From Singulisphaera sp. GP187 (lineage in GTDB: Bacteria > Planctomycetota > Phycisphaerae > Phycisphaerales > SM1A02): a DNA stretch of 50,131 nucleotides. Location: positions 1 through 50,131 of the forward strand of contig CAMDAQ010000002.1 of NCBI GenBank assembly GCA_945888705.1, in the 5' to 3' direction. How positions within the stretch are numbered: position 1 is the stretch's first letter; each line of letters opens with the position of its first letter. Both the position numbers and the translations under genes were made by a program. Shown one piece after another: positions 9,358-18,740 of the stretch. The notes under the pieces are model-generated. The model ran no database searches. It saw only the letters and a program-made list of their open reading frames with translations, and was not told the DNA's origin.

Positions 9358-10308
9358 TCAAGGCTGGTAGTCGAGTGGTCGCGCCAGGTGGAGGCCGGTC
9401 CGTACGCCCGCGTCGACCAGCGCCAGCGCCATCGCGGCACCTGCGAAGCTCGCAGCGGCCTCGGCCCGACCCATGCACAGGAACCATGCCGAGGGCATCA
9501 GGGCCTGCGTGAGGGTCGCCAGTCGCGCGAAGCGATCGGCCTGGCGCGGCGCGCCGCTGGTCGCGCGCCGCATCGCCATGGACACGGTCGCGAACGCGAT
9601 GAGCAGGATGATCGCGACGAGGATCCCCTCGCGAGGATGGTCGAAGCCGATCATCGGATCGAGGGTCTGGGGCGCGATCCACCACGTGAGCACGGCCGAC
9701 CAGGCTGCCCACAGCGCTGTGGCGACGAGCATGCCGCGGACCGTTGCGGCCGGCCGTTTCTGGCGCAGCCGATGCACGATGCCCGCCACGATCGCGGTGA
9801 AGGTCATCGAGAACCAGAAGGGCAGCAGCACGCCTGGGTGCTGGTCGGGCACAAGCATGTGGAGCGCACCGATGGCACCCAGGCTCACGAATCCGAAGGC
9901 TGGGATGAACTTGGCGAGCACGTTGTAGGCCACGATGCCGCCAGCGGCGAGACCGGCCACCAGCATGCCGCTGCGACCGAACTGGGATGCGGCAGCGAGT
10001 GCGGCGAGGAGGCTGATCACGGCCAGCACAGCCAGCCACTGCACCGAGAGCAGCCAGCGGCCCTGCCGCTCGGTGGCAAAGGCGCGATCGTGCTTGCGAT
10101 CGAGCACGTCGTTCATGGCGACGCCGAAGACGAAGAGCCCGAGCGAGACCACGCTCATGGCGAGCAGCAGCGCGGTGAGGTCCCCCTCAAGCCGGCCGGC
10201 ACGGTGAGCGATGGCGACGGCGAACCATCCTTCGGCCATGGCCCCGTAGGCCAGTCCGGCCCGCGCGGCCTGGACCCCTGCGGCAAGGCGGCGCAGCGCT
10301 GCGTGCAT
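9358..10308 (-). CDS. UbiA-family prenyltransferase
   Basis: Polytopic; NDVLDRKHDRAFATERQGR matches the NDxxDxxxD signature. Confidence 0.85.
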   Translation of the reverse strand: MHAALRRLAAGVQAARAGLAYGAMAEGWFAVAIAHRAGRLEGDLTALLLAMSVVSLGLFVFGVAMNDVLDRKHDRAFATERQGRWLLSVQWLAVLAVISLLAALAAASQFGRSGMLVAGLAAGGIVAYNVLAKFIPAFGFVSLGAIGALHMLVPDQHPGVLLPFWFSMTFTAIVAGIVHRLRQKRPAATVRGMLVATALWAAWSAVLTWWIAPQTLDPMIGFDHPREGILVAIILLIAFATVSMAMRRATSGAPRQADRFARLATLTQALMPSAWFLCMGRAEAAASFAGAAMALALVDAGVRTGLHLARPLDYQP

Positions 10309-10315
10309 GATGGCG

Positions 10316-10325
10316 AGGCTACCAT
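10316..10325. promoter_or_regulatory. overlapping divergent -10-like hexamers for the UbiA-family gene (-) and ribH (+)
   Basis: aggcTAccat: minus TAGCCT 7 nt before the 10308 start; plus TACCAT 9 nt before the 10335 start; they share one TA. Confidence 0.45.
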
Positions 10326-10334
10326 CTTCGCCCC

Positions 10335-10805
10335 ATGCAACCCGCTGCTCCTTCCATCGCCATCAACGCTCGGTCGCTGCGCATCGTGATCGTGACGAGC
10401 ACGTACCACTCGGAGCTCACCGGCGCGCTCGAACGGGGTGCGGTCAAGGCGTTCGAGGAGGCAGGCGGCGATCTGACGAAACTCAAGATCGTGAAGGCGC
10501 CGGGTGCGTTCGAGCTCGTGGCGATCAGCCGCGCGGCAGCCGTGCGCGGCGATGTCGATGCGGTGGTGGCGATCGGCTGCGTGCTGACCGGTGAAACGAG
10601 CCATGACCGTCACATCTGCGATGCCGTGGCGCACGGCCTGGCGCGGATCTCGGTCGAGTTCGGCAAGCCGGCGGCCTTTGGCGTGCTGACCTGCCAGACC
10701 CTCGGCCAGGCGCAGGCTCGTGCCGGCGGAGCGAAGGGCAACAAGGGCGAGGAAGCCATGCGCGCTGCGATCGGTGCGGCGCAGGCCATCAAGGAGCTGC
10801 AGTGA
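10335..10805 (+). CDS. ribH: 6,7-dimethyl-8-ribityllumazine synthase
   Basis: SYHSELTGALERGAV, GAFELVAISRAAA, AIGCVLTGETSHD, FGVLTCQT. Confidence 0.95.
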   Translation: MQPAAPSIAINARSLRIVIVTSTYHSELTGALERGAVKAFEEAGGDLTKLKIVKAPGAFELVAISRAAAVRGDVDAVVAIGCVLTGETSHDRHICDAVAHGLARISVEFGKPAAFGVLTCQTLGQAQARAGGAKGNKGEEAMRAAIGAAQAIKELQ

Positions 10806-11224
10806 GCGCGCCAGCGGATCTGGTCGTGCGGCGTTGCGCCCTGCAGGCCATGTACCAGTTCGACGCGGTGCCGGGCGTCGCGCCGGAGATCGTGCGCCGA
10901 TCGCTCGATGAGAGCGATGGCACCGAGAGCCATCATGAGTCCGGCTTTGCGCTGGCGTGCCTTGCCTGGGAGCACCGCGCCGATGCAGATGCCGACATCG
11001 TCGCGCTCGCGCCTGACTGGCCATCGCACCGGCAGCCGATGATCGACCGCAACCTGCTCCGGCTCGGTTGGTACGAGCTCGCGATCGGCAAGGTCGCGCC
11101 GGGCCTGGCCATCGGCGATGCCGTCGAATTGGCCAAGGAGTTCGGCACCGATCGCAGCGGCGGTTTCGTGAACGGTGTGCTCGACCAGGTCGCGCGCCGC
11201 GTGGCGGGCGGGGGCGCCGCGTGA
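10802..11224 (+). CDS. nusB: transcription antitermination factor NusB
   Basis: RRCALQAMYQFD, DRNLLRLGWYEL, AIGDAVELAKEFGTDRSGGFVNGVLD; GTG start overlapping ribH stop. Confidence 0.9.
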   Translation: MSAPADLVVRRCALQAMYQFDAVPGVAPEIVRRSLDESDGTESHHESGFALACLAWEHRADADADIVALAPDWPSHRQPMIDRNLLRLGWYELAIGKVAPGLAIGDAVELAKEFGTDRSGGFVNGVLDQVARRVAGGGAA

Positions 11225-12141
11225 TCTTTCGTGCAGCAGTCGAGGCCATCAAGCGGGGGCTCGCCAAGACGGCGGCCACCCTCGGATCCGGCCTGAAGAC
11301 GCTGCTGCACGGGAAGTCGCTCAGCGAGGAGGTGCTCGCCGAGCTCGAGTCGCGGCTCATCGCGGCCGACGTCGGCGTGCGTGCCGCCCGCGAGATCGTG
11401 GAAGCCCTGCGCGTGGAGTACCGCGCAGGCCGCGTCGAGCGCGGCGAGGATGCACTCGAGTTCCTGAAGAAGACGCTGAAGGCACGCTGGAAGGAAGCGC
11501 CGACCGGGCTTCGCTACGCATCCGGCAAGCCAACGGTCATCCTGGTCGTGGGCGTGAATGGCGCGGGCAAGACGACGAGCGTGGCGAAGATCGCCAAGAC
11601 GATCCGCGACAGTGGCCGTACGGTGCTGCTCGGTGCGGCGGACACCTTCCGCGCCGGCGCGGTCGAGCAGCTGAAGACCTGGGGCCAGCGGCTCGGCGTC
11701 GAGGTCGTCGCTGGCGGTGCCAATGCTGATCCTGCGGCAGTGGCCTTCGATGCCGCCGAGGCGGCGCTCAGCCGGGGCGTCGACGTGCTGCTCATCGACA
11801 CCGCGGGCCGCCTGCACACGCAGGATCACTTGATGCGCCAGCTGACGAAGGTGCGCGACGTGGTGCGCCGCAAGATCCCCGATGCCCCGCACGAAGTGCT
11901 GCTCGTGCTCGATGCCACGAGCGGCCAGAACGCGATTCAGCAGGCGCAGGTCTTCAAGCAGGCCGTGGATGTGACGGGCATCTTCCTCGCCAAGCTCGAC
12001 GGCACGGCGCGCGGCGGCGTGGTGGTGGCGATCCGTGATGCGATCGACGTGCCGGTCAAGCTCGTGGGTACGGGCGAGACCCCCGAGGATGTCCAGCCGT
12101 TCGACCCGGACCAGTTCGTCGAGGCGATGTTCTCGGCCTGA
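11221..12141 (+). CDS. ftsY: signal recognition particle receptor FtsY
   Basis: [66 protein letters not shown] start overlapping nusB stop. Confidence 0.95.
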
Positions 12142-16084: not shown

Positions 16085-16879
16085 TCATTCGAAGTCGTCT
16101 GCGGCACCCATGTACTCGTCGCCGGTGCGCCACGAGCGGCGGCTCGTCGGCCGGCCGCGTGCAGCCTGCGCCGGCCGCGGCTCCACGGCTTCGAATCGCG
16201 GGAGTTTCGTGGCCCAGGGCTTCGTGCCCAAGTGCACCTGGTGCACCAAGTCGACCGCTTCGTTCACGCTGTCCGTGAGATGGAACAGCTCGAAGTCCTC
16301 GGGGCTGATGGCCTTGTTGCGATCGAGCATCGTGCCGCGGATCCAGTCGAAGAGCCCACCCCAGAAGGCCTTGTCCACGAAGACGACCGGGAACGGAGCG
16401 ATCTTCATCGTCTGGATGAGCGTGAGGCTCTCGAACGCCTCGTCCATCGTGCCCATGCCGCCCGGGAAGATGATGAAGCCGCGCGAGTGCTTCACGAACA
16501 TCACCTTGCGGATGAAGAAGTAGCGGAACGAGAGTTCGATCGACTGGTACGGGTTCGGTTCCTGCTCACGCGGCAGCGTGATGTTCAGCCCGACGCTCAC
16601 ACCGCCCGCCTCGAGCGCGCCCTTGTTGCCTGCCTCCATGATGCCGGGTCCACCGCCGGTGATCACCGGGAATCCGCGCGCGACGAGCAAGCGACCGCAC
16701 TCCTCGGCGGCTGCGTATTCGGGTGCTTCCTTCGCGGTGCGCGCACTGCCGAAGATGCTCACGCCGGGACCGACGCGCGCGAGGGCGTCGGTCGCGTCGA
16801 CGAACTCGCTCATCATGCGCAGGGCGCGCCAGGATTCGCGGGCGTAGTTCACGTGATCATGATGGTGCGGCGCGTTCAT
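16085..16879 (-). CDS. LOG/TIGR00730-family Rossmann-fold protein
   Basis: VSIFGSARTAKEAPEYAAAEECGRLLVARGFPVITGGGPGIMEAGNKGA; GGMGTMDEAFE (PGGxGTxxE). Confidence 0.92.
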   Translation of the reverse strand: MNAPHHHDHVNYARESWRALRMMSEFVDATDALARVGPGVSIFGSARTAKEAPEYAAAEECGRLLVARGFPVITGGGPGIMEAGNKGALEAGGVSVGLNITLPREQEPNPYQSIELSFRYFFIRKVMFVKHSRGFIIFPGGMGTMDEAFESLTLIQTMKIAPFPVVFVDKAFWGGLFDWIRGTMLDRNKAISPEDFELFHLTDSVNEAVDLVHQVHLGTKPWATKLPRFEAVEPRPAQAARGRPTSRRSWRTGDEYMGAADDFE

Positions 16880-16927
16880 GGAACCCCATGCTAGGCCGAT
16901 CGCGTTCTCGGAACACGAGTCGCAAGT

Positions 16928-16942
16928 CCATGTCTGACATGG
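16928..16942. promoter_or_regulatory. 15-bp perfect inverted repeat CCATGTC-T-GACATGG (operator-like)
   Basis: Read directly in the divergent LOG/folC intergenic region. Confidence 0.5.
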
Positions 16943-16958
16943 CGTTGCATTCGGCCTT

Positions 16959-16987
16959 TTGCGTCGAACGTCGTCGATCGCTAGACT
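16959..16987 (+). promoter_or_regulatory. sigma70-like promoter for folC: TTGCGT-N17-TAGACT
   Basis: -35 at 16959-16964, 17-bp spacer, -10 at 16982-16987; ATG at 16995 implies leaderless transcript. Confidence 0.6.
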
Positions 16988-16994
16988 CGCCCGG

Positions 16995-18740
16995 ATGTCG
17001 AGGAAGAGCGCTTCATCGGGCAGCGGTTCGCGCACCACCACCAAGCAGGGTTCGAGCAAGACCGCGGCCAAGCCAGCGGCGAAGGCCGGCGCCAAGCCTG
17101 CTTCAAAGCCGCAGCCTTCGGCGACGAAGCCCGCCGCCGCGAAGCCAGCAATGAGCAAGCCATCGACGGCGCATGCCGTAGCGACGAAGCCCGCGCCGAA
17201 GCCCGCGCCGGTCGTTGCGGCGCCTGCTGCGCACCACAACGTGCTCGATGAAGCTCCGGTCACCCACGTGCCCATCATCGGCGTGCCCGCGATGCGCGGC
17301 TCGGCTCCGGTGCGCGCCGAAGAGCCCCTTGAACCCAAGCTTGCCGAGCACCGCACGAGCGAACTCTCCAGGAGCGAGCAGACGAAGGCGCGCCGCGGCG
17401 ACTTCAGCGATTACTCGGTGGCCCTGAAGTGGCTGCATGAACGCGTGGACCTTGAGCGGCTGCACACCGTGCAGTACAGCGACGAGCCGTTCAAGCTCGA
17501 CCGCATGCGCCAGCTGCTGGAGGTGCTCGGCAACCCGCACGAGCAGGTGAAGTGCGTGCATGTCGCTGGCACCAACGGCAAGGGCAGCACGGTGGCGATG
17601 GTCAGCGCGATGCTGCAGGCCTGCGGCTATGCGGTCGGCCAGTACGTCAGCCCGCACCTGGTCGACGTGCGCGAGCGCGTGACGATCAACGGCGCGATGC
17701 CCAGCGAGGCCGACTTCCTCGACCTGATGCGCCGCGTGGCCAAGGCGGCCGGCAAGCTTCCGTTCGAGCCAACGTTCTTCGAGCTCATGACGGCGCTCTC
17801 GTTCGTGCACTTCGCCGAGCAGGCCGTGGACATCGCGGTCGTCGAGGTCGGCCTTGGCGGCCGCCTGGATTGCACCAACGTCATCACGCCGCTGGTCGCG
17901 ATCGTGACGTCGATCGACCTCGACCACACCCGGATCCTCGGCAAGGACGTGAAGAGCATTGCACGCGAGAAGGCGGGCATCTTCAAGGCTGGCGTGCCCG
18001 CGCTGGCGTTCGAGCCGCAGCCCGAGGTCGAGGCCGTCTTCCGCGAGGTGGCCGCACAGGTCGGCGCGCCGCTGATGATCGTCAACAAGGACATCGAGTT
18101 CAGCAGCCGCTTCTGCACCACGCCTGACCTCGGTGCACACACGCGCGTCTGCTTCTACACCCGCACCACGCGCCTCGAACACCTGCCAGTGCCGCTGCCC
18201 GGCGAGCACCAGGCGGCCAACTGCGGGCTTGCGCTCGCGGCGATCGACGTGCTGAAGTCGGCCGGCTTTGCGTGCCCCGATGACAAGGTCAGCCTGGGCC
18301 TCATGGCTACAAGAGTCCGTGGTCGCATGGAAGTGATCGCCGAGCGTCCGCGCGTGCTTGTGGACGGCGCCCACAATCCCGCCAGCGTCGGCACGCTCAT
18401 GCGCTGCGTCGGTGCCCACGTGCCCTACGACAGCATGGTCTGCATCTTCGGTTGCTGCCGCGACAAGGACATGGCAGGCCTGCTCGACAAGGTCCACCTT
18501 GGTGCCGACAAGGTCATCTTCACGCGGGCGGCAGGTACGCCACGAGCGGCTGACCCGAATGAACTGCAGCGCATGTTCGCCGAGCGCAGCGGGAAGATGA
18601 GCCAGGTGGCACGCTCCCTGTCGGAGGCCCTTGAGGTCGCCATGCGTGCGGTCGGTCGCGAAGACCTGATCTGCGTGACGGGCAGCTTCTACCTCGTCGG
18701 CGAGGCCATGCGCCTGCTCGGCCAGCGCCGGACGGCTTGA
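16995..18740 (+). CDS. folC: bifunctional folylpolyglutamate/dihydrofolate synthase with Ala/Lys/Pro-rich N-terminal extension
   Basis: HVAGTNGKGSTVAMVSAMLQACGYAVGQYVSPHL, EVGLGGRLDCTNVI, VDGAHNPAS; ~140-aa low-complexity N-terminus. Confidence 0.93.
   Translation: MSRKSASSGSGSRTTTKQGSSKTAAKPAAKAGAKPASKPQPSATKPAAAKPAMSKPSTAHAVATKPAPKPAPVVAAPAAHHNVLDEAPVTHVPIIGVPAMRGSAPVRAEEPLEPKLAEHRTSELSRSEQTKARRGDFSDYSVALKWLHERVDLERLHTVQYSDEPFKLDRMRQLLEVLGNPHEQVKCVHVAGTNGKGSTVAMVSAMLQACGYAVGQYVSPHLVDVRERVTINGAMPSEADFLDLMRRVAKAAGKLPFEPTFFELMTALSFVHFAEQAVDIAVVEVGLGGRLDCTNVITPLVAIVTSIDLDHTRILGKDVKSIAREKAGIFKAGVPALAFEPQPEVEAVFREVAAQVGAPLMIVNKDIEFSSRFCTTPDLGAHTRVCFYTRTTRLEHLPVPLPGEHQAANCGLALAAIDVLKSAGFACPDDKVSLGLMATRVRGRMEVIAERPRVLVDGAHNPASVGTLMRCVGAHVPYDSMVCIFGCCRDKDMAGLLDKVHLGADKVIFTRAAGTPRAADPNELQRMFAERSGKMSQVARSLSEALEVAMRAVGREDLICVTGSFYLVGEAMRLLGQRRTA

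Follow-up and report, generated by a model that had tools for sequence, protein, structure and literature searches.

How can two divergent genes be transcribed when their start codons are separated by only 26 nt? The gap in question (GATGGCGAGGCTACCATCTTCGCCCC, nt 10309–10334) lies between the CAT at 10306–10308, the start codon of a UbiA-like gene on the minus strand, and the ATG of ribH at 10335–10337, within a window of 50,131 nt (the whole stretch of DNA that was analysed). The original prediction placed two −10 hexamers with one TA in common in this gap, such that both mRNAs would be leaderless, and regarded the arrangement as unusual. The window comes from an assembly of 2.36 Mb in 186 contigs. 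Named relatives are mostly Planctomycetota/Phycisphaerae assemblies, and several sample names refer to a lake or pond. One contig labelled 'Bacteroidia bacterium' (L032, JASGCG010000011.1) encodes a 98% identical UbiA-like protein; the assembly probably belongs to a planctomycete and has been mislabelled or contaminated.

The anatomy of the gap could be read directly and agreed with the prediction at every coordinate. The UbiA-like ATG begins at 10308 (minus strand) and that of ribH at 10335 (plus strand), the hexamers TAGCCT (10321–10316) and TACCAT (10320–10325) overlap on T10320/A10321, and spacers of 7 and 9 nt separate them from their own ATGs (Table 1). No Shine-Dalgarno sequence was seen at a usable distance for the UbiA-like gene on inspection of the gap sequence, and the GAGG nearest to the ribH ATG ends 16 nt upstream, within the promoter. 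A riboswitch or other leader for ribH was set aside on length alone, as 26 nt gives no room for it.

Table 1. Features of the UbiA-like/ribH gap and its flanking genes.
Feature	Position (nt)	Strand	Remarks
UbiA-superfamily prenyltransferase-like protein, 316 aa	9358–10308	minus	predicted leaderless
UbiA-like discriminator, 7 nt	10309–10315	minus	variable part of the gap
Core ANNNTANNNT (here AGGCTACCAT)	10316–10325	both	overlapping TANNNT −10 hexamers, TA at 10320–10321 in common
−10 of UbiA-like gene, TAGCCT	10316–10321	minus	first T 13 nt from ATG
−10 of ribH, TACCAT	10320–10325	plus	first T 15 nt from ATG
ribH discriminator CTTCGCCCC	10326–10334	plus	G10330 is the sole purine (C in L004/L005)
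ribH, lumazine synthase, 156 aa	10335–10805	plus	predicted leaderless or leader of at most 5 nt
nusB	10802–11224	plus	start overlaps ribH stop, GTGA (4 nt)
ftsY	11221–12141	plus	start overlaps nusB stop, GTGA (4 nt)

On the plus strand, ribH is the first gene in the order ribH-nusB-ftsY, and its product matches Pfam DMRL_synthase (1.7e-40) and exceeds the cut-off of NCBIfam lumazine-synth. The divergent protein gave no match to Pfam UbiA in a profile search and scored 30 bits against NCBIfam EboC, below the cut-off of 250. Its L012 orthologue (34% identity) scores 3.9e-13 against Pfam UbiA, and the name 'UbiA-like' rests on this homology. The motif NDxxDxxxD is found in the translated protein. 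The same protein (9358–10308) reads AFATERQGRW where the L012 orthologue has AFAPDRPIPAG, so that the usual UbiA motif is partly lost. A further divergent pair in the window (16879–16995) has TAGCAT at 14 nt and TAGACT at 13 nt, 115 nt apart, and a similar pair occurs in genome G006.

The site is strongly conserved. The ribH gene is present in 177 of the 183 genomes of the family, and throughout the genus of the window (g1) the gap measures 25–26 nt (one nt shorter in L007), with GAGGCTACCATC identical in 9/9 genomes; all nine also keep the ribH start and its 15-nt distance to the plus-strand −10. Among seven distinct members of this genus, 20 of the 21 columns from 10314 to 10334 are invariant, compared with only 20% of the 4-fold degenerate sites of both genes, where pairwise identity is ~0.6. 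Columns 10309–10313, adjoining the UbiA-like start, vary. In a second genus (g5), ribH is ~58–67% identical to that of the window and the UbiA-like protein ~28–33% (about 31%), and the core AGGCTACCAT (once AGGTTACCAT) was kept in all 11 loci examined. The ribH start of g5 lies ~16–18 nt from the plus-strand −10, the distances above 16 nt having been read by eye. The core thus appears to be under strong purifying selection. In several other genera the two genes are still divergent but have two separate TANNNT elements, as in L012, L013, L019, L022, L027, L029, L094, L095 and L098.

Whether a −10 so close to a start codon is normal for these bacteria was addressed by start statistics, using a simple codon-usage gene caller and scoring TANNNT with its first T at −12 to −16. 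The percentages are approximate because the caller misplaces some starts (it missed that of ribH), and G029 (57.6% GC) was left out since the caller's GC3 training rule is unsuited to it. TANNNT preceded 20% of same-strand leading and 28% of divergent starts in G000, 19% and 48% in G006, and 7% and 15% in G009, which belongs to another genus. The values for in-operon starts were 8%, 6% and 0%, respectively, and those for internal in-frame ATG/GTG codons were 0.0–0.3% (0–0.2% in G000 and G006). When nearby alternative starts were allowed (G000, G002 and G006), the figures became 19–30% for leading and 42–69% for divergent starts, but control motifs were also lifted to 7–29%, and the fixed-start comparison is therefore the cleaner one. 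Because TANNNT marks leading and divergent starts and not internal codons, the clade would appear to use leaderless transcription widely, and the association points to widespread leaderless expression in this family of Planctomycetota, for which no transcription start map was found in the literature. Genus starts aligned on their −10 showed no −35 signal, as positions −30 to −4 (counted from the −10) carried almost no information. Shine-Dalgarno cores accompany 6% of the leaderless-like genes versus 36% of other leading genes, a depletion that is partly trivial as the −10 occupies those bases.

The distances from −10 to start in G000, G002 and G006 were 12 nt (73 cases), 13 nt (50), 14 nt (8), 15 nt (38), 16 nt (13) and 17 nt (14). 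This distribution is bimodal in each of the three genomes, 12–13 and 15 nt being common and 14 nt rare. The UbiA-like gene (13 nt) and ribH (15 nt) represent both peaks. A C at −1 was present in 79–89% of starts at distances of 12, 13 and 15 nt versus 57–63% at internal and in-operon ATGs, an excess consistent with a YR initiator at the ATG. In the 15-nt class, purines are scarce at −2 (8%) and −3 (21%), the optimum location for a start, which suggests that these transcripts also begin at the ATG. ribH is a member of this class, and the pyrimidines at −1 to −3 before its ATG are typical of it.

The precise start of the ribH mRNA deserves closer consideration. Its distance of 15 nt, or 16–18 nt in g5, exceeds the commonest value (12 nt) and would leave space for a leader of a few nucleotides; G10330, which lies 5 nt beyond the −10, is a purine at which transcription might begin. 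A bidirectional promoter from which ribH is transcribed with a very short leader (3–7 nt), only the UbiA message being strictly leaderless, is for these reasons a real possibility, if a rather unlikely one. In L004 and L005, however, G10330 is replaced by C, which leaves no purine in the stretch from the −10 to the ATG and favours a start on the ATG itself; the genome-wide avoidance of purines at −2 and −3 in the 15-nt class also argues against a short leader. The prediction that both mRNAs are leaderless is accordingly strong for the UbiA-like gene, where the distance is 12–13 nt even with a GTG start, and slightly weaker for ribH, whose mRNA may instead have its TSS at G10330 and carry as many as 5 leader nt.

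Doubt could also be raised about transcription in both directions. TANNNT has only three fixed bases and two of them are supplied free by the common TA, so the hexamer opposite a true promoter of either ribH or UbiA might be a by-product of TA symmetry, the other gene being expressed from elsewhere or weakly. The greater conservation of the plus side (10322–10334) than of the minus-side spacer is compatible with this, although it could partly reflect a regulator site. The third fixed base of the minus-strand hexamer, A10316, on the other hand, does not vary in either g1 or g5, an ATG or GTG is found 12–13 nt from that hexamer in both genera despite divergence of the UbiA proteins to ~31% identity, and in most genera with separate promoters the UbiA start still has a TANNNT close by on the minus side. 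A promoter active in one direction only is therefore improbable, and two-way transcription from the gap is the reading we infer from these sequences.

Within the hexamers, GGC and CCA are invariant in the genus, beyond what TANNNT needs, as might be expected if GAGGCTACCATC were mainly the operator of a regulator of both genes and its likeness to −10 elements secondary. Yet TAGCCT (18/196) and TACCAT (12/196) rank with the hexamers most often found as leaderless −10 elements in the genus, and the same geometry recurs with other bases at unrelated gene pairs. An operator-only function was rejected on these two grounds and must be considered very unlikely.

The recurrence was seen among the 123 divergent pairs in ~1.04 Mb of DNA from three genus members. 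Close TANNNT starts were present on both sides in 27 of these pairs, versus 0–3 for four control motifs. Seven of the 27 showed the exact TA-shared overlap (offset −1) and none had offsets of 0–4. The seven include two orthologous copies of the ribH locus and so represent six independent loci. A second cluster, with −10 offsets of 23–27, was also seen in 7/27 pairs. A search for the pattern CAT N6-9 ANNNTANNNT N6-9 ATG gave 34 forward matches in the nine genus genomes versus none in a backwards-read control, and 1709 versus 702 across the family, with 44 of the 45 genera above control. Chance overlap of hexamers between close starts, although consistent with an independent-base estimate of ~1.9 matches per genome and with several genus matches that fall between short ORFs and are probably fortuitous, is contradicted by the backwards control and the strong conservation of the core and was dismissed as hardly credible. 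Three loci recur in the genus with long ORFs (≥156 codons) on either side: ribH/UbiA (9/9 genomes), M42 peptidase/GcvT-like (9/9) and FHA+HATPase/holA-like (8/9). Within the clade, the shared-TA layout is a recurrent, conserved arrangement.

The second and third of these loci (the holA-like gene being that of a DNA polymerase III delta-like protein) were seen in L170, L175, L203 and L204. In another family of the same phylum (f25; L188, L189 and L190), the layout is present with an almost identical core, which is GGCTACCAT or, in L190, AGCTACCAT; the divergent ORFs on either side measure ~360 and ~410 codons. At a shared-TA pair in L132 (13973–14001), the plus-strand gene starts 17 nt from its −10, a distance suggestive of a minimal leader and not of a leaderless mRNA. 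The plasmids of Deinococcus deserti, a leaderless-rich species used as a positive control, gave 23 pattern matches but no convincing case with two long ORFs. Leaderless bacteria do not, then, all share this layout.

A two-way promoter between the start codons is well supported by the conservation and the genome-wide statistics. Most probably, the gap is a bidirectional promoter consisting of −10 elements only, from which the UbiA mRNA would be leaderless and the ribH mRNA leaderless or preceded by at most 5 nt. It would be a minimal promoter of the housekeeping type, in which one TA serves both strands as the opening two bases of TANNNT (AGGCTACCAT), and RNA polymerase would bind in either orientation, one at a time. 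As a −10 alone seems to be a promoter in this clade, the 10-bp core would suffice for both directions, and the absence of leaders from both mRNAs would let the start codons lie at the promoter edges. Transcription of the UbiA-like gene would begin on the A of its ATG; the ribH-nusB-ftsY transcript would likewise begin on the A of the ribH ATG, or no more than 5 nt upstream. The TA-shared geometry would place the two starts 23 bp apart at the optimum −10-to-start distance, or 27 bp if both are on the A of the ATG. Both mRNAs would then be translated as leaderless messages, since neither side has a leader with a Shine-Dalgarno site.

Bidirectional −10 promoters, leaderless TANNNT genes and a doubly leaderless divergent pair are each already known. 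The nearest kind is the 23-bp class of the bidirectional promoters described by Warman, Grainger and colleagues in E. coli and Salmonella (PMC12825309, PMC10268837). Start spacings of ~10, 18 and 23 bp are common in E. coli, and polymerase occupies such a promoter in a single orientation at a time (PMC12825309). As in those promoters, −10 elements of opposite strands overlap in one short sequence, and the geometry predicts an ideal start spacing of 23 bp. The site described here differs in its predicted leaderless products (PMC12825309 makes no mention of these), in lying wholly between start codons and in having no −35 signal, and its start spacing is predicted from sequence. The leaderless TANNNT genes of Mycobacterium tuberculosis (PMC3898074), and of Actinobacteria and Deinococcus-Thermus (PMC3160421), likewise have TANNNT ~12 nt upstream, no −35 consensus, no Shine-Dalgarno sequence and a C at −1. 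Unlike them, the present genes belong to Planctomycetota, a phylum not named in PMC3160421, and their distances are bimodal (12–13 and 15 nt). The divergent pair prpD (Rv1130)/Rv1129c of M. tuberculosis has both mRNAs mapped as leaderless (PMC3898074). Its starts (1254630 and 1254510) are 120 bp apart, so that its promoters are separate, without a common −10. At lysG/lysE of M. tuberculosis, divergent promoters overlap and one transcript is leaderless, but the intergenic region is 108 bp and the leaderless mRNA comes solely from the second lysE promoter (PMC5648196). Neither this locus nor crtR/crtE of Corynebacterium, which was also considered as a precedent, combines a shared −10 with two leaderless mRNAs. 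No divergent pair with this combination was found in the literature covered, which was incomplete, and an earlier precedent may exist. The description of the arrangement as unusual thus needs qualifying: within the clade it is recurrent and conserved, and a doubly leaderless pair has been mapped elsewhere, although without a −10 in common.

Leaderless mRNAs and bidirectional −10 promoters have hitherto been studied apart; here the two are combined in one conserved site that leaves no DNA unused. Mutating one base of the common TA should affect two start sites at once, offering a clean test of polymerase competition. It can tentatively be suggested that in this clade selection maintains the shared-TA, doubly leaderless promoter as a reusable module, which couples two genes through mutually exclusive polymerase binding. 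If so, it would be the smallest such layout: a single polymerase-sized site would serve both genes, all the untranslated DNA would belong to the promoter itself, and the arrangement would have been maintained between genera with UbiA proteins of only ~31% identity. In this group of uncultured freshwater Planctomycetota, a gap of 26 bases appears to hold a complete two-way promoter, and both messages probably start at, or a few bases from, their first codon.
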